From: Thioploca sp.
GTDB lineage: Bacteria; Pseudomonadota; Gammaproteobacteria; Beggiatoales; Beggiatoaceae
Assembly: GCA_012032555.1 (NCBI GenBank)
Contig: JAAUSR010000004.1
Location: 1 to 64,000, forward strand
DNA: 64,000 nucleotides
Direction: 5' to 3'
In this document: positions 36,169 through 58,752 of the stretch, in pieces
How the letters are laid out: the number at the start of each line of letters is the position of its first letter
How positions within the stretch are numbered: position 1 is the first letter of the stretch
Program-made: the position numbers and the translations under genes
The notes under the pieces: model-generated
Told to the model about the DNA's origin: nothing
Seen by the model: only the letters and a program-made list of their open reading frames with translations
Database searches by the model: none

Positions 36169-37320
36169 TCAGCGTGACAGTGACTTTAATTTAACAATTT
36201 TATCTTGTTGTCCGGGTTGACTTTTCAGGAAAGAAGTCCAGCCTAATCGAATTGGTGGTTCACCTAAACGGCTTTCTGGAATTTCATCCGCTTTGAGGAT
36301 CAGATTAATTTCAAAATCTAATTCATCCCTGACAAAAAAGCGAGTTAATTCACACAGACGAGTATAACCAGAACCGGTAGGTAAAAAGTCGAGGAATTGT
36401 TCTAAATTCAGTGGTCCAACTGACAGTGCAAATTTGCCATCTTGATCCCAAATTCGGGTTCCTAAAACGGTAGTACGACCTAATGCTTGATTAGGTTGGT
36501 TAATGCCAAGCCGAGTATGACTTTCTGCTGACAAATATTGCCAGCATCCTATCCACGGTTGACTGGTGACTTTAACCTGAAAAAAGTCAGTGAGTAAATG
36601 TTCTAAAGTACTGAGTGAACGAGATTGATGTGTTAGTAACCCAGCGTAAAATAATAAAGCGTTATCATCAATCGCCATTCGTTCTCGCAAGCCCGGTGTT
36701 CCTAAGCCGACTAAAGCAAATAAGCGCTGGGCAAAATGACTTTGCCAAGGTAAATTGGCTTCTAAACCAATGCGTTGATTCTTGCGACCACGATATAATA
36801 ATGAGATAAGGTAATGATTGAATAAGTCTAGAAAATCACGTAAAGTGGTATCCTTTTTCCACACGCGTTCGATAATGAGTTCAGTATACGGCATAGGCAA
36901 CGGTCCATGAGCACCGGCTAACCCCATGAAATTAACTTGCATGAGGATAACAATGCGCTGTAGCCGACCGAGTTGTCCATTGATATTGACTTCAGTTAGC
37001 GGTTCTAACCGACTCAGTGTCGGGTAACGTTCACCAGTAATATCTCTAAAATCAATCATTTTGGTTTGCTGACGACCATTAATCTGGAAAACAACTGAGG
37101 CCATTAAACGAATCTGCTCAATATCACTAGCCGGAAAAGCGGCACTGACGGTTGAAGCAAAACGGATTTCGATAGGAATGTTTAAACGGGGTTGAGCATT
37201 TGCCGCCAATTTTTCTAGTAGTTGTACCGCTTTGTAAAACTCAAATCGGTAACCTTTAGTAAAGAGGAGTTCTTCTACAGTTGGATTTGTTTGCCTGGAC
37301 GAGTGGGCCATTTTTTCCAT
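36169..37320 (-). CDS. tssG: Type VI secretion baseplate protein TssG
   Basis: The 383-residue protein has the family start (FEFYKAVQLLEKL), AFPASDIEQI and GLAGAHGPLPMPYTE, and ends RLGWTSFLKSQPG. It forms the baseplate wedge with TssF and TssE. It overlaps the end of tssF by 46 bases if the first ATG is used; the next, at 37311, is also possible. In the next frame the reading stays open past its stop to 36086, discussed under findings. Confidence 0.92.
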   Translation of the reverse strand: MEKMAHSSRQTNPTVEELLFTKGYRFEFYKAVQLLEKLAANAQPRLNIPIEIRFASTVSAAFPASDIEQIRLMASVVFQINGRQQTKMIDFRDITGERYPTLSRLEPLTEVNINGQLGRLQRIVILMQVNFMGLAGAHGPLPMPYTELIIERVWKKDTTLRDFLDLFNHYLISLLYRGRKNQRIGLEANLPWQSHFAQRLFALVGLGTPGLRERMAIDDNALLFYAGLLTHQSRSLSTLEHLLTDFFQVKVTSQPWIGCWQYLSAESHTRLGINQPNQALGRTTVLGTRIWDQDGKFALSVGPLNLEQFLDFLPTGSGYTRLCELTRFFVRDELDFEINLILKADEIPESRLGEPPIRLGWTSFLKSQPGQQDKIVKLKSLSR

Positions 37321-43932: not shown

Positions 43933-46900
43933 ATGAAATTTCAATCGCTATTCATAATGATTTTGTTAATCAATAGCTTAAATTTAAAAGCTGAAATTAC
44001 CCTAGATGGCACACTCGGACACAGTGGTGTACTACAAGGTCCTGATTATTCCATTGAAGCTGACTTAGGGCAACAAGTGGGTAGTAATTTATTTCACAGT
44101 TTTCATGACTTTAACCTCAATAAACCCGAAAGTGCAACTTTTTTAGGGCCTAATAGCATCACCAATATTATCAGTCGTGTTACCGGCGGGAATCCATCAA
44201 ATATTGATGGGTTAATCCATTCTACCATTCCTAATGCGGACATGTATTTTCTTAATCCGTATGGCATTATGTTTGGCCCCAATGCCCGATTGGAGGTTCA
44301 AGGGAGTTTTCATGCGAGTACTGCCCATTATGTGCGTTTAGGTGAAGAAGGGCGCTTTGATGCTCGCCAACCGAGTGAAAGTCTTTTAACGGCTGCACCA
44401 GTAGAGGCATTTGGTTTTCTGAATAGCAAGGTTGCGCCTCTTTCAGTAGAAGGGTTAGGAGAAATTGCCGAAACTAATGATAAAATCGGGTTGAGAGTGC
44501 TAGATAGGAAAACGTTGTCATTAATTGGTGGTGAGATTGAAATAGGGATGGGTACTTTTTTTAAAACGGTAACGATTGATGATAAAGGCAATGAATCAAA
44601 TGAAATTAACAATTTACCTAGTATTTCTGCGCCTTACGGTCGAATTAACTTAGCCGCTGTTGCCTCCCAAGGTGAAGTTAAGTTAGGTGGGGATTTTATA
44701 GACATGTCATCATTTAGCCAATTGGCTGATATATCTATCAAAGAAAAATCATTGCTGCAAACTACTGGTGAAGGTGGTGGCAGTATTTTTATTCGTGGCG
44801 GACAATTTGTGGTTGATGACAGTGCACTTAAGGCTAAAACTCGGGGTAGTCAAGATGGTGGCAAGATTAGTCTAAGAGCAGATAAAGTTTCACTGCTTAA
44901 AGGTGCTATTATTAATAGTTTTACAGAAGGTATAGGGAAAGGTTCTGATATTAATGTATGGGCTACCGATTCTATTATTATTACTGGTGAAAATGCTGAA
45001 CATACTCAAGAAAGTTCTATTGTTAGTGGATTAGCATCTTTAATTGGTTCACCTGAACAGACTGATGAGAATTTAGGTGATGCTGGAGATATTTATTTAA
45101 AAGCTAAAAACATTGTCATTAAAGATGGTGGTGGGATTACTACTAGTACTGATACATCTAGCAGGGGAGGTAGTTTAACCATTAAAGCCGATGAAACATT
45201 CTCAGTTAGTGGTGATGGAAAAAGATGGGAGAAAAAGAGAAATTCATGGGATGGTAGTTATATTGCTTCATCTACTTATAGTAAAAAAGAAAATGCCGGT
45301 GATGCCGGTGAAATTTCAATCGACGCAAAAAATATTTCATTTTTAGATGGTAGCTATATTTATTCGGTGAAGGCCAAGGTAAAGGTGGAATAGTTGAACT
45401 AAAAGCTTCAGAAAGCGTCACATTTGCAGGCAAAAAAATAGTAGTAACTATCCCACACGAGTTTATATTAGTACATTAAATGAAGGAAGTAATGCCGGTA
45501 GTTTTTCAATAGATGCTCAAAAAATCTCATTCAAAGAAGATGCTTATATTGATTCAAGTACCAAGGGGAAAGGTCAAGGAGGGAATATTAAGCTTAAAGC
45601 TGCTGATAGTATTAATTTTAATAATGCTTATATTGATGGTAATGCAAATGGCGAAGGAAATGCCGGCCAAATTGACCTTGATGCTCCTAAAATTACTCTA
45701 GATGAAAGCTATATATCAAGTGACAATAATGGTATTGGTACCGGAGGAACAATTACTATTAATGCATCGGAACAACTTGAACTTATTGATCAACGTATTT
45801 TTAGAAAACAGGAAGACATTAAGATAGAAACTTCAATTCAAGCAAATACTTCTTCTGGTAGTGGGAAGGGTGGCTCTATTTTTATTGAGACCGGACAATT
45901 GAAACTAACCAGTGCGAATATACTTTCCCAAACTTTGGGTGAAGGAGGGGGTGGCGAAATTTTAATTAAAGCAAACCATATTGATCTACTTAATGGGAGT
46001 GCAATTAGTACCTCTACTCTTAAATCTGATGGTCAAGGTGGTAATATTAATATTGAAGTCACTGATACACTGGAGCTTTCCGGTTCTAGGCAGGGGTTTG
46101 TAGGTGGTTATAATAATAATAATATTTTTGAAAATGTACAAAGTGGTTTTGGAAGTGTGACGTTTGGAGGAGGTAATGGGGGTACAATTGAAATCACAGC
46201 GAATAATTTAGTTGTAAATGGCGCTAGCATTGGTACAGCAACTATGGGTTCGGGTAAGGCTGGTAATATGAAGATTACGGTAAATAATTTATCTTTAAAA
46301 GGTGGTGGTACCTTAACAAATGGCAATGGTGCTTTCATTGGTGAAAAATTGTTTATAGGAACTGGAAATGGTGGTGAAACTAATGTTAGTGCCAAAGAAA
46401 AAATTATCATTGAAGGCCGTAATCAAATTTATTCAAGCAGTATAACTAGTAATACTTTTTCTAGCGGTAAAGGTGGTAATATTAATATAGAAACTGACAG
46501 ACTCGTTTTAGGTGATAAAGGTACTATTTCTGCAAATAGCATAGATATTAACCAAGGTGGTATTGGTCCACTTTTACGTGAAAAGGGTTTTCTAAAGAGC
46601 AGTATAAATATTGACAACAATGGTACCGGTGAAGGTGGTAGTATTAATATACAAGCTGATAACATCATTCTTCATAATGATAGCAATATTTCTGCGAACA
46701 GTATAGGTATCCTTCAGCTTGTTAAAGATGGTTATATGAATCTATCAGTTGATAGTCTACTAATTGGTGATAATCTAATCATGGATGGTAATATTAAAAA
46801 TAGTCAACTTGTTGGCAATGCTGGAAATATTAAATTAACCGTAGGGCAATTATCCTTAACAAATCAAGCAGCAATCTCAGCAAATGCCCAAGCAAGTGCT

Positions 46901-47362
46901 GGTGGTAACATTAATCTTACTTCTCCCGGTTATCTCTATCTAAAAGACAGCTATATAACCACCAACGTCAAAGAAAAAGGTAATGGTGGTAATATAAAAC
47001 TAAATCCTGAATTCATCGTCCTAGACAGCGGCAAAATACTTTCTCTATCTCAACAGGGCGATGGTGGTAAAATCAATATTAGTCTTACCGGCCTTTACAA
47101 TTTTTCGCAAGGTAATTTAGAAGAGTTCATCAATGCTAAATCCTCTGGTGGCGGAATAGATGGCGAGGTTAATATTAACTATGCAGATACTCGTTTAACC
47201 GAAAATTTATTAGCTCTATCTACTGAGTTTGATGCAAGTAACCAACTTCAAACGCCTTGCGGTGCTAAGCTTGCTGAAAACTTGAGTAGTTTGGTGATGG
47301 TACCCAGCGAAGGTGTTACCAATGCACCGAACGACTTGCTCCCAAATAGCCCTTATTGCTAA
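43933..47362 (+). CDS. Two-partner-secretion exoprotein (filamentous haemagglutinin-like), two frame breaks
   Basis: A signal peptide (to about residue 20) is followed by the TPS secretion domain (about 25-150) with FHSFHDFNLNKPESATF, NIISRVTGG and FLNPYGIMFGPNARLEV. Then comes a long beta-helix with recurring GGxI-L-A and GNGGNI motifs. The first frame ends at 45393; adding one base to gg at 45366-45367 continues GEGQGKGGIVELKA, and one more A in the seven at 45432-45438 leads to YPTRVYISTLNEGSN and on to 47362. The mended length is about 1143 residues with a TPCGAKLAENLS end found in similar proteins. The matching TpsB transporter is not in the window. Confidence 0.85.
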
Positions 47363-47408
47363 AACCATCGACTCTAAGAGTCGCAACTGCTATGAAAAAC
47401 CAAGAGAC

Positions 47409-47600
47409 GACAACAACCAAACCTTCGATATCAACTATTGCCCTTATGACAGAATGCCAACCCAAGAAATCAGCTACCCATAGGCTTAAAATAATGAAAA
47501 AAATAGTGTGATTCCTAAGCAGTTGTTTTAAGATTATTCTAAAAGAAGATGAGTTATGAAAATTTTTTTCAATTAGATGTTAGTCATTGCTTTATTGAGA
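47409..47600 (+). repeat. Degenerate direct repeat, copy 1, left of the toxin-antitoxin pair
   Basis: aaccaaaccttcgatatcaa and cttatgacagaa are nearly repeated at 48.23-48.28 kb. The end, about 47550-47595, imitates the first codons of the OppA-like gene (ATGAGTTATGAAAATTTTTT against its ATGAGAAGTTATGAAAAAAT). Confidence 0.65.
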
Positions 47601-47610
47601 ATATTACATT

Positions 47611-47859
47611 ATGAATTTCTCAACATTATTGCAGAATGTCCAATTCGTGACGGATGCACAAGGTCACACGCAAGCCGTTCAAATTGATTGGCATACTTGG
47701 GAAGCACTCATGGCTTACCTTGAAGAAGTTGCTATTGAAGAAGAGGCTACCGAGGAATTGTTAGCCATACCCAATTTGCTTGAAGCGATTGAACAATCCA
47801 AACAACGTGTCAAAGCTGGAGAATTCATCCGTTATCAAGATTTAAAACGTGAGGTATGA
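47611..47859 (+). CDS. Antitoxin, RelB/Phd-like
   Basis: The 82-residue acidic protein (VTDAQGHTQAVQIDWHTWEALMAYL, split as an N-terminal beta hairpin and helix) overlaps the RelE-like toxin gene by 11 bases. Such small acidic proteins with an AVQIDW strand are typical antitoxins and probably repress their own promoter. Confidence 0.75.
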   Translation: MNFSTLLQNVQFVTDAQGHTQAVQIDWHTWEALMAYLEEVAIEEEATEELLAIPNLLEAIEQSKQRVKAGEFIRYQDLKREV

Positions 47860-48112
47860 ACTCAGATTTGATAAAGATGCCGCACAAGTCTATCGCCAAG
47901 CTGACAGATTGATGGTAAAACGATTTAATCGTTGTTTTGAGTACTTGCGCGAAAATCCTTTCACTCATCCTAATATCAAAGCACTTACGGGTACTTTAAG
48001 TGGTCTTTACCGTTACCGAATTGGTGATTGGCGGATAATTTATGAGATTCTTGTTGAAGAACAAGCAATTAATATTTTGCAGATTGTTCATAGAAGCAAT
48101 GCTTATCGTTAG
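47849..48112 (+). CDS. RelE/ParE-type toxin
   Basis: The 87-residue basic protein has the RelE/ParE fold pattern: YELRFDKDAAQVYRQ helix, HPNIKALTGTLSGLYRYRIGDWRIIYEI core and a final IVHRSNAYR strand (with the common HR.Y ending). RelE kin cut mRNA on the ribosome; ParE kin poison gyrase. The core RYRIGDWRI fits the RelE side. It is translated from within the antitoxin gene. Confidence 0.85.
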   Translation: MRYELRFDKDAAQVYRQADRLMVKRFNRCFEYLRENPFTHPNIKALTGTLSGLYRYRIGDWRIIYEILVEEQAINILQIVHRSNAYR

Positions 48113-48513
48113 GTTGAGATCATCTTGCTCGTTACCAATAACCAGTTGGAATTTGGTAATGCTTGTTGGTCAAGCTTGGCTTGAAGTGAAGCCTAGCACA
48201 CAGACACTAGCCAGCCTCGTTTGGTAGCAAGCCAACCAAACCTTCAGTACCAACAGTTGCCTTTATGACAGAAGGACAGCTTAAGAGATTAGCTCTTCAG
48301 AAGTTTCAAGCAGTGAAAAAAAGTAGCATGATTCCAGAGCAGTTATTTTGAGGTTATTCCAAAAAATTAAAATACTACCAATAGGGTAACTATAAAGAAT
48401 TTTTCCTACCTTGTTATTAATTGGCAAGGGGGTAGTGCTAGATAAGTAGTGATTCTCTTCTACTTGGCTTAACACCACCGGCAAGGGGTCATAAAATTTT
48501 AATAAAACGAAAA
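48113..48513. repeat. Spacer with direct repeat, copy 2
   Basis: The part 48225-48370 (gccaaccaaaccttcagtac, ctttatgacagaa, gcagtgaaaaaaagtagc, gagcagttattttgaggtta) is an imperfect copy of 47430-47545. After an insertion of about 140 bases it meets the real start of the OppA-like gene. It has no gene. Confidence 0.6.
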
Positions 48514-50340
48514 ATGAGAAGTTATGAAAAAATTTTTCAGATGATGTTAATCATTTTATGGTTTTCAGCCACAATCATAACGGGTTGTAACAAGCAAATT
48601 CATAATCCCGAAATGGATTCAAATGAATTATTACCAACTGCGGTTGACCAAGATTGTGATGGTGATTACCAAACACTTCAAAACCGCAAACCCTGTTTAA
48701 GACTAGCTTTAAGTCAAGCCTTTGGTGATATTGATCCGGGCTTAGCGCGTGATACGAGCCAAGCTGAGATAGTTGAACAATTGTTTCTTGGATTAACGGA
48801 CTTTCAAAGGCAGGCAGACGGTTCTTATCACGTGGTAGGAGAATTAGCGACTGATTGGCAATCAACTGAAAATAATACAGTTTATACCTTCAATCTTCGC
48901 CACGATGTTTCCTGGGTTAAATGTGAAAATAAGGAAAAAGAAAAGTGTATCTCTTGGCGTTCAGAAGAACCCGTAACAGCTCACGATATTGTTTGGGCTA
49001 TTCGACGTAACTTGTTAGTTAATCAAGATGCACCGTTAGGATATATCAACAACGCTATCACTATACTTGAATACCTCAAACAAAATCAAATACAAACAGA
49101 AAATTTTCTTAAAACGGGAAATATTTCTAGTGAAAATGGCATATTGTCTTTAGGTGTTCACGCCATTGATGATTATAAGGTTGAGTTTATCCTTGAACAA
49201 GCCTATACCAATTTTCCTAGTTTAGTGAGTGTAGCGGCTTATCGTCCTTTGCCTCGTCATGTTATTGAGAAATACAAAAACCAATGGACCGAATTAGATA
49301 ATATTCAAACGAATAGTTCTTATGTGCTAGCTGAGTGGCAAAAAGGAAATGACATTATCTTGGAAAAAAATCCTCATTACTATGATGCTAACCACGTTAA
49401 CATTCTAAAAGTACATTACTACATCATTCCAGAAACGGAGTTAGGCTTAACTCTGTATAAAAATAATGCCCTGGATATTTTAGGCGGTTCGTATCTTGAA
49501 TTACCCATGGCAGAAATTTACCATATTAAAACCGATCCACTCTTGGCCGTTGATCTGAAAAAAGGCCCTCAAGCGTGTACGGCATGGTATGGTATTAACA
49601 CACAACGACCACCCACAAACAACCGATTAATTCGTGAGGCGTTGGCTGCTGCTATTGATAAACAACTGTTAATTGATACGATTATTCAGGAAAATAATCC
49701 GGCAAAAACATTAGTTCATCCTAGCAGTATCGATTCGATTGATCCCAAAGTAAATGTAGGCATTTCATTTGCGCTAGAACAAGCTAATACAAAGCTGAAA
49801 GAATATAAAAAAGCTCATCTACACCAAAAAATACCCCCAATTGTTTTAGCATATGATCGTAATGATGATATCAGTAAGATCACTCGTGGCGTTCAAACAT
49901 TACTCACCTATTACTTAAAAGGTATCGACTTTCAGGTAAAGGCAATCGATGCAAGTATTTACGATGAGCAAATCATCCCTCTCCAGCCAGAAACAACACC
50001 ACATCTATTTTGGTTTAATCTTTGTTCTGATTATTTTGATCCCTACAATTGGTTAGGTCTTTTCCATTCTCAACAAGGTTTAAATTGGTTAAGTGGGGAC
50101 AAAAGTGTGTTATTCGATAAAATATTAGATGAAGCGTACCAAATGGATGATCCCAACGAACGGCAAAAGAAATACCGTCAAGCAGAACAAATCCTGATAC
50201 AAGAAGAAATAGCCGTTATTCCCCTTTATTTTAATTACGCCAACATATTAGTGAAACCATACATTGTCGGTTGGTATAACATGCCAATAGGGGGTCAACA
50301 TATTCGTGATTGGGCGTTGGAAAAATCGATAGATAGGTAA
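48514..50340 (+). CDS. OppA-like peptide-binding lipoprotein, orphan
   Basis: The 608-residue protein has a lipoprotein signal with lipobox ITGC (Cys25) and the SBP family 5 fold: LRLALSQAFGDIDPGLARD, TAHDIVWAIRRNL, NNRLIREALAAAIDK and a final IPLYFNYANILV. It would be anchored in a membrane facing the periplasm and bind oligopeptides or similar ligands. No oppBCDF permease or ATPase lies near. Six bases separate it from the binding-protein/channel fusion gene, so the two are very probably one operon. A role in presenting ligand to the channel is inference. Confidence 0.85.
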   Translation: MRSYEKIFQMMLIILWFSATIITGCNKQIHNPEMDSNELLPTAVDQDCDGDYQTLQNRKPCLRLALSQAFGDIDPGLARDTSQAEIVEQLFLGLTDFQRQADGSYHVVGELATDWQSTENNTVYTFNLRHDVSWVKCENKEKEKCISWRSEEPVTAHDIVWAIRRNLLVNQDAPLGYINNAITILEYLKQNQIQTENFLKTGNISSENGILSLGVHAIDDYKVEFILEQAYTNFPSLVSVAAYRPLPRHVIEKYKNQWTELDNIQTNSSYVLAEWQKGNDIILEKNPHYYDANHVNILKVHYYIIPETELGLTLYKNNALDILGGSYLELPMAEIYHIKTDPLLAVDLKKGPQACTAWYGINTQRPPTNNRLIREALAAAIDKQLLIDTIIQENNPAKTLVHPSSIDSIDPKVNVGISFALEQANTKLKEYKKAHLHQKIPPIVLAYDRNDDISKITRGVQTLLTYYLKGIDFQVKAIDASIYDEQIIPLQPETTPHLFWFNLCSDYFDPYNWLGLFHSQQGLNWLSGDKSVLFDKILDEAYQMDDPNERQKKYRQAEQILIQEEIAVIPLYFNYANILVKPYIVGWYNMPIGGQHIRDWALEKSIDR

Positions 50341-50346
50341 ATAATT

Positions 50347-52790
50347 ATGAAAATAATATATGGGCTGATTTTCCTAGTGGCGATAGGAGTTATTTTAATA
50401 ATAGGATACCGCTTTTTTAATAAGGATACAATTTATATTGCTGTCGCTGGACCTTTAACTGGAGATAATGCATTTTACGGCAAAACCATGCTTCAAGGCG
50501 TTGATCTTTATCTTGAGAAAATCAATCAAGCAGGCGGTATTTATGGCAAGCAGGTTAAACGACTCCAGTTTGATGACGGTGGCAGAAGATGCGATAGGGT
50601 ACCACCGAACGATCCAGCACCAAGAAAATGCGCGAAAGAAGTGGCCAACCAAATAAGTATCAGCCCCGCCCTAGCTGTCATCGGTCACTATAGCAGTGAA
50701 CCCTCATTAGAAGCAGCCGAAGTTTATAAGAGTAAGGGTATTCCGGTAATTACCAGCACGGCAACAGCCGATGATATCACTAAAGATAACCCGTGGTATT
50801 TTCGGGTGACTTTTAAAGATAGTGATCAAGCGGCAGTGATAGCTAACTATGCACATAAAATACTGGGTTATAAAGCATCCTATATATTTTATGATAATGA
50901 CTCTTATGGCCGTGGACTTAAAAAATCATTTAGTAATACCGCTTCTAAAATTGGGTTAAAGATCCAAAATGAGCACAAATGGGGCTTTGACCAAGAGCAA
51001 GATAACAGTTTTAAAAACAATCTTAACCAGATGATTGAGACATTAAAAACGTTTGATGAAAAAGAGGGTATTCTGTTTCTAGCTACCCATCCCACTGAAG
51101 CAATAAAAGTTATCAGGGAATTAAGGCGTTTACCCTATAAATTACCCATTATTAGCACAGATGCATTATCGAGTAGTGGTTTTAGAAAAATATTAAATCG
51201 CTATCCACAAGAAAAAGCGTTCCCAGGTTATTATACCGATGGTATCTATGTCGCCTCCCCTTTTCTGCTGGATATTGCCGGTAGGCAAGCTCAATATTTT
51301 TACCAACAATATAAAAAGAAATACCAAATGGAGAAAGACAGAGAGACAGATATAGGTATTTCTGTCGTAACCCCAGCTTTATATTATGATGCCACGATGG
51401 TTGCTGTTGAGGCGATTAAGCAAATGTTAGCACCCCAAGAAGGAACCGAAGTAGCAACTCATCTTGAAGATCAACGTAAACAAGTGAGGAATCACTTACG
51501 CCAGTTATCTCGATTAGAAAATGCGGTAGAAGGTGTCACGGGTTCTCTTTATTTTGACAGCAATGGTGATGCGATTAAATCTATTCCCATCGGGATTTAT
51601 AATAAAGGTAAACCGGTCACCGCTTGGTATCAATACCAACCTTTGACTGCTATGCCAGAAGCCAACAACCTCTTGCGAAATATTTTGAATAATAACATTA
51701 TCCAAGTAAATGATAAGTTCATGCAGAAAGCCCAAGTTGTTTATACTGGAATAGATTTTAATGATATTAGTGAACTTGACCTTAACCAATCTACTTATAA
51801 AGCTGATTTTTATGTTTGGTTTCGTTTTCTGCAACCCAATAAAACGCAACAACATTTTGATTATATTGATTTTATCAATATTTTTGATCCCAAAGATAAT
51901 GATATAAAAAAGGCAGTCCTTTAAAACCGGAAGAATATTTACCTGAAAAAGGTTCTAAACTTGATAAAGTCATTATAAACGCTTATCGATTCAAAACGCA
52001 GTTCAAAATCGACTTTGATCTTCATGATTATCCTTTGGATCAACAAATTTTACCTATCCGATTTCGCCACAATCACTTGACAACTGATAAACTGATTTAT
52101 GTTGTCGATAGAGACGGTATGACGTTAGATGAAACTAAAACTAAAATACATGAGGTTTTTCCGGGTTGGAAAGTAGTTGATAAGGGCATTTCATTTTTTC
52201 AAGATACCCAGAAAAACGATTCTACCTTGGGGAATCCGAAACAGTTTAACTTAAAAAAACGACTGGAGTACTCGCAATTCAACGTGGAAATCGAAATTGA
52301 ACGACATGTATTGGGCTTTCTGTTAAAAACGTTATTGCCAACGCTGTTTGTATTAGGGTTAGGATATGCCGTTTATTTCACCTATGTGTTTGCTATTAAA
52401 ATGGCACTGAGCATGAATCTAATCATCTCCACTTCGCTGTTTCATTTAAAACTAGCTTCTTCTGCATTGAGTGCAGTGGAATACACTGTTTTGATTGAAT
52501 ATGTTTTTTACATTGTCTATTTACTGGGCATATTTGGTGTGATTACTTCTCTCATTATTGATAAAGAAGAATTAAAAGTGAAAACAATGAAAGATAAGCT
52601 TGATGAATTGCGGAAAGACGACGAATTTTCAAAAGACGAATTTTCAAAAGAAGAAATCGAACGGATTGAGAAAACAACTAATCGAAGTAAATTGTTAATC
52701 AATCGTATTGAATGGGCCGGAAAGATAGGATACCCTGTGGTAGTGGTGTTGGTTATAGCCGGGGTATGGATATTTTATCAGTACCGATAA
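50347..52790 (+). CDS. Type I periplasmic binding protein fused to a pentameric ligand-gated ion channel, frame break at 51906-51912
   Basis: An N-terminal membrane segment (residues 4-22) leads to a LivJ/ANF-receptor-like domain (about 30-430): VAGPLTGDNAFYGKTMLQG, GHYSSEPSLEAAEVYKSKGI, YDNDSYGRGLKKSF. From about 470 starts a channel extracellular domain: VVYTGIDFNDISELDLNQ, then KADFYVWFRFLQ. The first frame ends at 51924. In the -1 frame the reading stays open without a start codon through FKIDFDLHDYPLDQQ, the Cys-loop counterpart with its Pro and without cysteines, to a stop at 52790. Four membrane segments follow at about 655-680 (with the M1 Pro in LLPTLF), 683-705, 712-737 and 793-812, with a charged M3-M4 loop. 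The joined protein is about 814 residues. Prokaryotic pLGICs with extra N-terminal domains are known. Confidence 0.85.
51906..51912 (+). other. Slippery heptamer A AAA AAG at the domain joint
   Basis: In the reading frame of the binding domain the codons are ata aaa aag gca gtc ctt taa. The last a of ata plus aaa aag is the heptamer used for -1 frameshifting in E. coli dnaX. A -1 slip here continues ggc agt cct tta into the channel domain. I see no strong downstream stem or upstream Shine-Dalgarno stimulator, and a missing A in the run of six would have the same effect. Confidence 0.5.
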
Positions 52791-52875
52791 TTAATTCACT
52801 GAGGTTACACAGCTTGCGTAGCTAGCACATCACTAGAGCGTGGGAAGGAGAGAACTCACCGTAACAGAATCTCTA

Positions 52876-55053
52876 CTAATTATTAGACATCTTGACTTGT
52901 CCGTTGGTTAAAGCCTGAATGACTTGTTCTTTAAGACCAAAAGCCACAATTTGTCCGCCATCTACCACCATTAAGTGATTAACTAATGATAATAACGACA
53001 TACGGTGCGTTACCAACAGCAGGGTTTTATCCTCTAAATGGGCTTGTAATCGTGTTTTTAACAGTTCTTCAGCGCGATTGTCCATCGCATTAGTTGGTTC
53101 ATCCAGTAATAAAATCGGTGGATTGAGCAATAATGCTCTGGCTAACACTATCGCTTGTCTTTGTCCACCCGATAAACCTTCACCCCGTTCACCTATCAGC
53201 ATATCAAATCCTAGAGGATGACGATTAGTGAATTCATCAACACCAGCTAATTGAGCCGCTTGGAGTACCATACTGTCTTCCACATAACTGGCGCCAATGA
53301 CAATATTATCTTTAACTGTGCCATAAAATAATTCAAGATCTTGTGGAATATAACCGATATTGCGTCGTAATTCGGCCGGATCCAATTGGCGACTGTCGAC
53401 ACCATCTAGCAGAATACTGCCCCCAGTGGGCTGATAAAGTCCTAAAATTAATTTGGCCAGGGTGCTTTTTCCAGAACCAATTCGGCCGATAATACCAATT
53501 TTTTGACCGGCATTGATTTTAAATGACATTTTAGTGAGAGCGGCTACCGGTTGTTGCGGATAGTTAAAATCAACTTGTTTGAACTCAATATCACCGCGTA
53601 ATTGTGGACGATGTAAAAAGGGTTTGCCTAACGGACGTTCGAGTGGCATCGACATGATGTGATTTAATACGCGCAATGCCGCTAACGATTGGTGATAACG
53701 GGTGAGTAGGTTGGCTATGGGCGCTAAAGGTGCCAAGGCGCGTCCGGCCAAAATAGTGCTAGCAATGAGCGCCCCGGTAGTTAGTTTACCATCAGCAATG
53801 AGATAGACTCCAGTGACAACCACCACAATCGTAGTCATTTGTTGAACGAACACTGAAAAATTCACTGCTAGTGCCGATAAAAACCGTGACTTAAGACTAG
53901 ATTGCGCAATTTGCCCAATTAGCAGTTCCCATTTACGTTGCATTTCTCCTTCGGCACCCCTAGCTTTGAGCGTTTCTATTCCGCTTAAGGTTTCAATTAG
54001 TAGGGCATGTTTTTGGGCACTGGCGCGAAAAGTTTGGCGAACGACATAGCGTAACGGCAATTGCACTAATAAGCTTAATCCCATGACAATAGCCATGCTG
54101 TATAGCGGAATCATGGCTAATTCAGGATTTAAAGTCCAAATAACTGTAATAAAGAGTAAGGCGAAGGGCAAATCAACCAAGGTGGTTAAAGTCGCTGAGG
54201 TAAAAAATTCCCGAAAAGTTTCAAATTCATGTAAATGATTGGCAAAAGCACCGATAGAACGTGGATGAGCTGCACGTTGGGTCCCCAAGATTTGTTCATA
54301 GATGATGCTGGCGAGTAAGACATCTGATTTTTTACCTGCCATATCAATAAAATAACCTCGAAGGATTCGCATAATAAAATCAAAGCTAAACACAATTCCT
54401 ACCCCAATGGCTAATACCCATAGCGTTTCTATGGCTCGATTAGGAACGACACGATCATAAACGTTCATAACAAATAAGGGGGATGCTAAAGCAAATAAAT
54501 TGATGAGCAAAGAAGCGATAATGACTTCGCTATAAATTGACCAGGATTTAAGTAAAGTACCCCAAAACCAACTGCGTGAATGCGGGATAATGTCCTCAGC
54601 AGTGCGTTGATCAAACGTGTAAATTGGACGGGCAAATAGGGCATAACCACTATAGTTTGCTTGCAGATCTTTTCTAGTAATGGTAAGCATTCCTTCGCCA
54701 GTCATGGGGAGAATAATTTGAGCTTGTTTCTTTTTCTTATCGAGGTATTTAACTAGGATGCAAGCTTGTTGATCTTTAAGTAATAAAACAGCGGGCAACA
54801 CCAATGGATTCAGTTGAGTAAGAGATCGTTTGATTAATCGGGCAGATAAGTGAACACGCTCAGCCGCACGGATAAATAATTCCGGGGTAAAGCGGTTATT
54901 GACTAAAGGTAATCCGGCTTTCAGGGCTTCGGCTGAAACCGGTTTACTCAATAATTTAGTGAGAATGACTAGGCATTGTAAAAGCGGATCATCCGGAATG
55001 ATAATTTTTTCACTATCTTGCCAAGCATTACTTTCAAACTGGTTAGTTGTCAT
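52876..55053 (-). CDS. Type I secretion ABC exporter (LapB/HlyB-like, inactive C39-like domain)
   Basis: The 725-residue protein has an N-terminal C39-like domain (about 20-150) without the catalytic Cys, so it likely binds rather than cuts its cargo. A six-helix exporter domain with EVIIASLLINLFALASPLFV follows (about 170-470), then the ATPase with Walker A GRIGSGKST, signature LSGGQRQ and Walker B ILLLDEPTNAMD. It exports large repeat adhesins in this family, together with an adaptor (LapC/HlyD) and TolC. Neither is seen nearby. Confidence 0.92.
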   Translation of the reverse strand: MTTNQFESNAWQDSEKIIIPDDPLLQCLVILTKLLSKPVSAEALKAGLPLVNNRFTPELFIRAAERVHLSARLIKRSLTQLNPLVLPAVLLLKDQQACILVKYLDKKKKQAQIILPMTGEGMLTITRKDLQANYSGYALFARPIYTFDQRTAEDIIPHSRSWFWGTLLKSWSIYSEVIIASLLINLFALASPLFVMNVYDRVVPNRAIETLWVLAIGVGIVFSFDFIMRILRGYFIDMAGKKSDVLLASIIYEQILGTQRAAHPRSIGAFANHLHEFETFREFFTSATLTTLVDLPFALLFITVIWTLNPELAMIPLYSMAIVMGLSLLVQLPLRYVVRQTFRASAQKHALLIETLSGIETLKARGAEGEMQRKWELLIGQIAQSSLKSRFLSALAVNFSVFVQQMTTIVVVVTGVYLIADGKLTTGALIASTILAGRALAPLAPIANLLTRYHQSLAALRVLNHIMSMPLERPLGKPFLHRPQLRGDIEFKQVDFNYPQQPVAALTKMSFKINAGQKIGIIGRIGSGKSTLAKLILGLYQPTGGSILLDGVDSRQLDPAELRRNIGYIPQDLELFYGTVKDNIVIGASYVEDSMVLQAAQLAGVDEFTNRHPLGFDMLIGERGEGLSGGQRQAIVLARALLLNPPILLLDEPTNAMDNRAEELLKTRLQAHLEDKTLLLVTHRMSLLSLVNHLMVVDGGQIVAFGLKEQVIQALTNGQVKMSNN

Positions 55054-57428: not shown

Positions 57429-57868
57429 GGTAATTCTCCTTAGTATGGTCGGTTTATTTTAAACCTGTTGCAGTTAACCAAAATATTAAATAATAATCCT
57501 CGTTTAGAAATGAGGTTTGATTTTTAGCTAATTGACTTAGTAAACAAGCTTAGTTTTAATTCAACAACGCTAATAAACTTATAAATATAATAAAATTGGC
57601 ACATTAAAAATTCTATCATCAAGGTATGAGGTTGGATAGTTGAATAAAGTTAAGAATCGGTAATAATAGAAAGAATAGATAAATAAATTTTTTGAGTCGT
57701 TGTTAAAGGATAACTCAATCACATTGGGTTAAAAACACAGTGGCTTAAAGCATTTAAAAATGTCATAATAACTTCAACCCGAATAAGGGTTAGTGAGCTG
57801 AATTAATCTATTGCATTCTAAATGTTAAATTTTATTTTCCAAACCAATGCTATAAATACTTTTTGTCA
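57429..57868. other. Divergent spacer between the NlpC/P60 gene and prmA
   Basis: AT-rich, with no gene. It must contain promoters in both directions. A candidate plus-strand -10 sequence (tataaat) lies at about 57850, shortly before prmA, but no matching -35 stands out. Confidence 0.35.
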
Positions 57869-58752
57869 ATGCCATGGTTACAAGTTATCTTAGATACCGA
57901 AGCACAATACGTTGAGGAAATTTCTGACGGACTTGTTGCAATGGGTGCTATTTGCGTCACTTTGCAAGATGGAGCTGACCAAGCTTTGTATGAACCTCCC
58001 TTAAATACAACGCCATTATGGAAGCGCACCCAGATAGTCGGATTATTTGATGAAGATAAAATTGATGGCTTAACACTCCCCGTTCAGTTACAAAATGTAT
58101 TGGCGCCTTTACCATTACCGTCCATTCAATGCCAGCGTTTAGAAGACCAAGAATGGACCCAACGGAGTATGAGTGATTTTCATCCAATGCAATTTGGGCA
58201 TCGAGTGTGGATTTGTCCAAGTTGGACTCCTCCACCGCAACCACAAGCCGTTAATATATTCCTTGATCCCGGATTAGCCTTTGGAACTGGTACTCATGCA
58301 ACAACTGCTTTATGCTTAGAATGGTTGGAGCAGCAAGGTGATTGGTCAAACAAAGTATTAATTGATTATGGTTGTGGTTCAGGCATTTTAGCGATTACTG
58401 CTGCTAAATTAGGTGCGACTCAGGTTTGGGCAGTTGATATTGATCCGCAAGCTTTATATGCGACTCAAGCCAACGCTGAAAAAACCAAGTCACTTTGCAA
58501 ATTAATGTGACTTTACCCACGCAATTACCTCACCTCAAAGTGGATGGTTTAATTGCTAATATTTTAGCTACTCCTTTAATCGAGTTAGTACCCACTTTAG
58601 CCGATTATTTAAAACCGACTGCTCCAATCGTCTTGTCTGGCATTCTCAAAGAACAAACTCAAGCAGTCATAGCCGCTTATACACCCCATTTTACTCTCAT
58701 TGACGTAACGGAACGTGACAATTGGATGCGTATTGTAGCTACCAAACTTTGA
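57869..58752 (+). CDS. prmA: Ribosomal protein L11 methyltransferase, frame broken near 58490
   Basis: The ATG at 57869 (MPWLQVILDTEAQYVEEISD) is the usual PrmA start; an earlier TTG is less likely. The first frame carries FLDPGLAFGTGTHATTALC and VLIDYGCGSGILAITAAKLGA, the S-adenosylmethionine site, but stops at 58510. One A added to the six at 58489-58494 gives AEKNQVTLQINVTLPTQLP and continues with VDGLIANILATPL to 58752. The mended length is about 294 residues, the normal size. PrmA trimethylates L11. Confidence 0.92.

Follow-up and report, generated by a model that had tools for sequence, protein, structure and literature searches.

Prokaryotic pentameric ligand-gated ion channels (pLGICs) serve as structural models for nerve receptors, and their own natural ligands and roles are mostly obscure. 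Tasneem et al. (2005; PMC549065) describe PBP-I/ART-LGIC fusions in Magnetospirillum and Bradyrhizobium as well as operons in which an ART-LGIC gene is accompanied by stand-alone PBP-II genes, and propose a chemoreceptor role; Jaiteh et al. (PMC4795631) set terminal domains aside. Here we analyzed a locus in a 64,000-nucleotide stretch of a Thioploca sp. genome (the window; assembly GCA_012032555.1, contig JAAUSR010000004.1, positions 1 to 64,000), in which the gene for an OppA-like lipoprotein of the SBP_bac_5 family (SBP5) is followed by a gene that joins a type I periplasmic binding domain (PBP1) to the extracellular domain (ECD) and four-helix transmembrane domain (TMD) of a predicted pLGIC. 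As in the systems of Tasneem et al., a type I binding domain lies ahead of a pLGIC and a PBP-II gene stands in the same operon; in the accessible portion of that paper, fusion and operon are separate cases, whereas the window locus has both together. As PBP-I fusions and PBP-II operons have both been in the literature since 2005, the locus is a variant of a published design, distinguished by having both features at once and a partner from a separate SBP5 clade. The best reading of the locus, which we hold with moderate confidence, is a two-protein periplasmic chemosensor whose output would be an ion current.

The pair and its parts are laid out as follows, where class A and class B denote homologues in which PBP1 and ECD continue into a pLGIC TMD or an MscS module, respectively.

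48514-50340, plus strand: open reading frame (ORF) of 608 amino acids for the SBP_bac_5 (OppA-like) lipoprotein (Pfam PF00496, E 1.4e-45; ITGC lipobox)
50347-51924, plus strand: first ORF of the channel gene, with an N-terminal anchor-like helix, PBP1 and the start of the ECD (Peripla_BP_6 at residues 28-392)
about 50428-51522, plus strand: PBP1 domain within the first ORF (Peripla_BP_6, PF13458, E 5.1e-31)
from about 51703, plus strand: first part of the ECD, within the first ORF
51802-51828, plus strand: ECD motif ADFYVWFRF (all three residues of WFR conserved in every class A (32/32) and class B (31/31) ECD)
51906-51912, plus strand: A_AAA_AAG heptamer before the frame break (A-run itself 51906-51911; stop 51922-51924)
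51924-52790, plus strand: second part of the channel gene, in another frame, with the remaining ECD and M1-M4 (from translation; TIGR00860 LIC, E 3e-6; homologue profile aligned to GLIC 18-313)
52029-52046, plus strand: cysteine-free Pro-loop YPLDQQ at the Cys-loop position (Pro and Asp in 32 of 32 class A sequences)
from about 52284, plus strand: TMD, within the second part
52392-52469, plus strand: M2 pore helix AIKMALSMNLIISTSLFHLKLASSAL, which holds the class A pore columns in GLIC-aligned prime numbering

The lipoprotein scores above the Pfam cut-off for SBP_bac_5, a family with the PBP-II fold, and its closest relatives in the Protein Data Bank (PDB) are OppA chains (E 1.5e-36). A lipobox was found by strict pattern in 19 of 29 channel-neighboring SBP5s examined. 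The gap between the SBP5 ORF and the channel ORF is 6 bases, so that an SBP_bac_5 gene stands next to the channel in the manner of the PBP-II genes of Tasneem et al. (2005). The original prediction, which had been made from the sequence of the window, had described just such an OppA-like lipoprotein 6 bases upstream, with neither ABC permease nor ATPase, and both statements were borne out: among ten neighboring window ORFs scanned (ORF 45899-47362 was outside the scan), we found no permease or ATPase of an Opp/Dpp importer, and the sole ABC gene was a C39-type exporter (52876-55053) on the strand opposite to the pair.

In the channel gene, the first ORF begins with the type I binding domain, which also matches ANF_receptor (E 2.4e-20). 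The C-terminal part had no Pfam match in the window, and its match to the NCBIfam model LIC (26.2 bits) is far under the model cut-off of 280.2 bits. Nonetheless, every motif named beforehand (ADFYVWFRF, the cysteine-free YPLDQQ, the M1 Pro and four hydrophobic membrane segments) was located in the window, together with the pre-M1 Arg (IERHV). Neither protein of the pair has a Pfam match to SBP_bac_3, Lig_chan or Ion_trans_2, the domains that would be expected of an ionotropic glutamate receptor. The claim of a type I binding domain followed by a complete pLGIC body therefore held for the domains and their homology, but not for the gene, which is split into two frames. Likewise, the joined chain of 814 residues does not exist in the assembly, where ORF 50347-51924 stops and the remainder lies in the other frame; our searches used the channel pieces joined by X only and left the frame unrestored.

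Pfam alone misses the ECD and pLGIC TMD of this family, so profile-profile and PDB-profile searches were required. A profile of 32 intact class A ECD and TMD sequences matched GLIC with E 4.7e-21 (positions 21-327 to 18-313), in an alignment that spans the ECD and all four helices, and confirmed the pLGIC identity proposed earlier for the C-terminal part. The Pro and Asp of the Pro-loop and the pre-M1 Arg were invariant (32/32). By full-length homology and by the Pro-loop, the class A channel is thus predicted to be a pLGIC. The test of its pLGIC part used sequence profiles only, because the Foldseek and VIA lists for the AlphaFold model of the intact homologue L036 (pLDDT, the predicted local distance difference test, 83.1; predicted TM-score, pTM, 0.79) were filled by binding proteins. 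In M2, with prime numbers assigned through alignment to GLIC, position 9' was hydrophobic in 32/32 sequences, 17' was Lys or Arg in 28/32, and 0' was Lys or Arg in 21/32 and never acidic. These basic and hydrophobic columns suggest that the pore would have a hydrophobic gate at 9' and may favor anions or be weakly selective.

The head of the channel resembles an amino-acid-binding protein. In the L036 model, PBP1 superposed on LivJ (4gnr) with Z 41.4 and a root-mean-square deviation (rmsd) of 2.4 Å over 344 residues, and its stretches GHYSS...TATADE align with GHLCS...ATAPE of the leucine/isoleucine/valine-binding protein (LIVBP), where the equivalent stretches line the amino-acid site. This intact fold and alignment bear on an alternative in which PBP1 and SBP5 only assemble or modulate the channel, like the amino-terminal domains of glutamate receptors, while the opening signal (a proton, amine or ion) binds the ECD. 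GLIC, ELIC and sTeLIC lack a head of this kind and are nonetheless responsive to protons, amines and alkaline pH, which act on the ECD itself. Moreover, the extra domain of DeCLIC influences gating kinetics (PMC9897478, PMC12664993). The leucine-binding-protein fold that PBP1 has kept, its LIVBP-like stretches, and the recurrence of binding-protein genes beside the channel argue the other way, and we consider this alternative possible but doubtful.

An ECD and TMD query matched 31 of 42 genomes of the window's family, with up to 15 places in a single genome; one of the 31, G027, owed its place to L095, an AI-2E transporter and so a false match. The annotated set comprised 126 different genes in which a single frame spans PBP1 and ECD, recognized with custom profiles in chosen regions and named contigs (448 pattern matches, 241 relatives, best 80 kept). 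It is not a census, since class B regions were selected on purpose, and an open frame over PBP1 and ECD was a condition of counting rather than an outcome. In this set, 81 genes were class A (PBP1-ECD-pLGIC TMD), 31 class B (PBP1-ECD-MscS), 11 class C (PBP1-ECD-TMD-SBP_bac_1), and 3 truncated. The nearest intact homologue, from Candidatus Halobeggiatoa sp. HSG11 (L036 = L096), is 57% identical to the window in SBP5, 62% in PBP1, 69% in the ECD and 61% in the TMD.

The SBP5 partner recurs with class A. In the Beggiatoa group (the window's family plus Thiotrichaceae among the named contigs), an SBP5 gene adjoins 29 of the 35 single-frame class A genes, 28 of them within 500 bases and one at 1,425; the genes lacking it are L051, L117, L119, L129, L133 and L145. 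Twelve further pairings were found in 11 Desulfobacterota genes and one Mariprofundaceae gene (L160), where the order differs and SBP5 lies downstream of the channel. No SBP5 adjoined any of the 31 class B or 11 class C genes. Left out of the pair counts were L040/L108 and three truncated frames (L130, L166 and the second gene of L167). There are 3 SBP5 genes in the window's own genome and 2 to 4 matches in each of 17 family genomes, a draw that did not include G010, G031 and other genomes rich in channel pairs; with so few SBP5s per genome, chance adjacency is unlikely. Recurrence in two phyla likewise places the pair beyond chance, and the gene pair is therefore not unique to this assembly, as had been anticipated.

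A tree of 67 SBP5s placed the 43 channel-linked proteins from two phyla, including that of the window, in one group (support 100/100), within which only one of 24 other family SBP5s (L227) fell. These 24 came from 31 loci, seven of which proved to be channel-linked genes themselves and were dropped; these loci cover part of the genome matches. The tree also carries a warning that long branches may have joined L221 to the channel-linked proteins. Distances between channels correlated with those between their SBP5s (r 0.64; 28 pairs), whereas partner swaps within seven multi-pair genomes gave a mean r of 0.32, with 4 of 5000 as high as observed. The nearest neighbor agreed between channel and SBP5 in 21/28 pairs. 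Channel and SBP5 are thus inherited as pairs, and the two proteins may be in contact. L075 was excluded from this test; at L075:1831-4701, a head protein adjoins an SBP5 gene, with an N-terminal DUF697 region, and its pLGIC TMD match was missed by BLAST and found by profile only.

These patterns bear on the alternative that SBP5 is an ordinary peptide-uptake protein serving a distant ABC importer, its adjacency to the channel being incidental. SBP5 has a transport fold, and an importer may exist, since another SBP5 elsewhere in the genome (L199) adjoins two ORFs that read as permeases by eye. That putative importer, however, has an SBP5 of its own, and the separation of the channel-linked clade from 23 of the 24 other family SBP5s, the frequency of the pairing in the Beggiatoa group, its occurrence in two phyla and in another gene order, and the partner-specific co-divergence all argue that incidental adjacency is unlikely.

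Binding proteins other than SBP5 also accompany this channel family. In class C, an SBP_bac_1-type domain is fused after M4 (11 proteins by custom profile, Pfam-checked in 2; E 9.3e-32 in L065), a fusion that needs four changes on the ECD tree; given four helices and a periplasmic head, this domain should again be periplasmic. The Desulfobacterota SBP5 gene bears a PBP1-like domain of its own (Pfam-checked in L174), and in nine loci, some with the SBP5 gene cut by the locus end, it is followed by two PBP1-ECD-TMD genes, which suggests hetero-oligomeric channels. Among 17 SBP5-free loci whose neighbors were read by eye, the channel in 5 adjoined a different binding-protein gene or domain, identified with Pfam, and no binding-protein neighbor was seen by eye in the other 12; L204, beyond these 17, has NMT1_3 beside the channel. 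The loci are listed below.

Two consecutive channel genes after PBP1-SBP5: L148, L154, L155, L157, L158, L161, L165, L173, L174
SBP_bac_3 beside the channel: L150
PBP_like_2 beside the channel: L169
Peripla_BP_4 beside the channel: L159
SBP_bac_3 within a GluR0-type channel beside the channel: L152, L163

SBP5 pairing, these other neighbors and the class C fusion thus form several routes that bring a second binding protein to the same channel. In L152 (3611-4690) and L163 (2372-3475), from two Desulfobacterota genomes, the GluR0-type channel lies directly upstream of the PBP1-pLGIC gene and has SBP_bac_3 split by Ion_trans_2 and a TVGYG filter, an apparent case of two ligand-gated channel superfamilies in one operon.

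The two-protein chemosensor reading rests on the domain identities, the pairing in two phyla, the SBP5 clade, co-divergence, and the second binding protein fused in relatives. In such a sensor, the ligand captured by SBP5 would probably be a peptide or resemble one, and SBP5 would present the ligand, or itself, to the channel, each subunit of which would bear a leucine-binding-protein-like PBP1 on top of the ECD. The signal from ligand bound to PBP1, possibly altered by docked SBP5, would pass via the ECD and Pro-loop to the four-helix pore and change ion flow there; the ligands, gating and pentameric state ascribed here to the predicted channel are those we infer. Several observations weigh against this reading. 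Taken over all class A genes, SBP5 lies beside 41 of 81, and none was seen beside the cyanobacterial genes, a few of them close to the start of the available sequence; with 6 of the 35 Beggiatoa-group genes also lacking it, the partner appears dispensable. L227, inside the channel-linked clade, shows no channel in the 10.8 kb examined around it, and the co-divergence would also be expected from mere block duplication of both genes. Lastly, the channel gene itself is broken in the window.

This break, near 51906-51924, has a parallel in the same window, where the conserved single gene prmA is also divided:

57863-58749: prmA, divided between two frames close to an A-run

In G040, a genome of the same genus, prmA is in one frame (310 amino acids; 88% identity over the second piece). 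With prmA likewise interrupted, the channel break is likely an assembly error; a misassembled frame accounts most simply for the split, and the copy is probably intact in the cell. A true pseudogene would also present a broken frame, and two related genes are broken as well, namely a class B paralogue from contig C94 and, in several places, the homologue L040/L108 in G030; the C94 gene has an unsplit counterpart in G040 (L079:8379-11375). Nevertheless, the prmA comparison points to assembly errors, and each remaining channel domain is 61-69% identical to L036, making decay of the window copy quite improbable.

Programmed -1 frameshifting at A_AAA_AAG, which would yield both a pore-less head and a full channel, is a further account of the break. 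The heptamer is in frame at this point and occurs in frame only once in 39,069 bases (27 window ORFs counted), but the RNA downstream showed no unusual fold (z -0.29), and the nearest homologue, L036, is a single frame of 789 amino acids. The other class A genes counted are also in one frame, though openness was the condition of counting, and sequencing errors fall at A-runs too, as the prmA break near one illustrates. We therefore regard recoding here as very unlikely.

The same head was also found on a different pore. The four other head-bearing genes found in the window's own genome (two on C94, one each on C38 and C127) continue into an MscS module rather than a pLGIC TMD; the C38 gene is truncated where its contig stops, and the broken paralogue is the second of the two on C94.

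PBP1-ECD-MscS genes: G000 contigs C94 (L076), C38 (L077) and C127 (L078), and L079-L094, with the cyclic-nucleotide-binding (cNMP) domain present or absent

The first C94 gene (L076) combines Peripla_BP_6 with MS_channel_2nd (PF00924, E 3e-17) and cNMP_binding (PF00027, E 4.7e-23). A cNMP-binding profile hit 17 of the 31 class B genes, and tandem pairs occurred in 12/19 class B loci examined. Against the PDB, the class B ECD profile alone found no pLGIC; its one match was unrelated (E 0.18). The identification therefore depends on homology to class A ECDs (hhalign probability 100, E 1.8e-55) and on a model of ECD plus MscS (pLDDT 73.0). The pTM of 0.42 leaves domain placement in that model unsure. 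Foldseek matched it to YnaI-MscS (E 7.7e-14) and, separately, to the nicotinic acetylcholine receptor (nAChR) alpha7 (E 5.6e-10), sTeLIC, GLIC and ELIC (up to E 3.0e-9), with an rmsd of 12-20 Å in the long pLGIC alignments because these extend into the membrane part. More trustworthy are the ECD-only VIA rows against GABA-A receptor chains (rmsd 3.2-3.6 Å over 165-167 residues; Z 14.6-14.9), one chain giving Z 14.9 with 3.6 Å over 167 residues. From the profile comparison and the model, the class B ECD is predicted to be a homologue of pLGIC ECDs.

Five helices are predicted between the class B ECD and the beta-domain, which would place the C-terminus in the cytoplasm; known MscS is heptameric. 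Class B retains WFR throughout, and has the Pro-loop Pro in 3/31, the Asp in 1/31 and the pre-M1 Arg in 0/31, so that, judging from these alignments, the coupling residues, which would abut a pLGIC TMD, have been lost in proteins with a different TMD. On the ECD tree, a quick tree with two rows of unknown pore class excluded, a single change, in either direction, separates the two pore types (branch support 97; 131 rows of known pore), a single-swap result that is weakened by the long branches L202, L238, L201, L204, L094 and L203. Beyond the family, among the matches listed from 274 class genomes (three of them from the family), the graft was found in G279 with PBP1 and a cNMP domain, in G272 without PBP1, in G156, and partially in G271. 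We judge the chances evenly balanced that the PBP1-ECD head has moved, perhaps once, between a pLGIC pore and an unrelated MscS-type pore, about half with a cNMP domain. Such a receptor would integrate outside amino-acid or peptide signals with inside cyclic-nucleotide and perhaps tension signals, and the pLGIC version found in the same bacteria would have its own peptide-binding lipoprotein. In the open-licence papers searched, which are no proof of absence, we found neither an ECD-MscS fusion nor a paper on Beggiatoa with a ligand-gated ion channel.

The remaining scanned neighbors of the pair comprise, upstream, a RelB-like/ParE-like toxin-antitoxin pair directly before the SBP5 gene (47611-48112), TPS and CHAT-TPR proteins, and TssG of type VI secretion (36172-37320, minus strand). 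Downstream lie the C39-type exporter, one matchless ORF, NlpC/P60, PrmA and DUF3426. An Rfam search of 47000-54000 gave no match.

An amino-acid-binding-type domain and a peptide-binding-type lipoprotein that travels with it would provide a prokaryotic pLGIC with a testable natural ligand and partner. If the MscS graft is true, receptor heads and pores of unrelated channels are exchangeable in nature, and the rules of head-pore coupling become comparable between pore types.

Class A aligns with GLIC and other prokaryotic pLGICs over the full length of ECD and M1-M4 and shares the Pro-loop. GLIC has no PBP domain, whereas class A does, and the acidic -2' residue of GLIC has no conserved counterpart in class A, whose 0' and 17' are mostly basic. 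Ionotropic glutamate receptors and GluR0 also stack binding-protein domains on a channel; the resemblance to them that was drawn at the outset holds as a parallel of design, with a binding domain above a channel, and ends at the pore, which is unrelated and of pLGIC type. Bacterial cyclic-nucleotide-gated (bCNG) channels belong to the MscS superfamily (PMC4560390). They share with part of class B the MscS pore and cNMP-binding domain, to which class B adds PBP1 and a pLGIC-type ECD in front. DeCLIC is, like class A, a pLGIC with a large additional periplasmic N-terminal domain; its extra lobes are jelly rolls according to the DeCLIC papers cited above, whereas the class A head has a binding-protein fold. 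Finally, compared with the systems of Tasneem et al., the window locus has as its partner an OppA-type SBP5 of a distinct clade, and its relatives carry SBP_bac_1 after M4 or the same head on an MscS pore.

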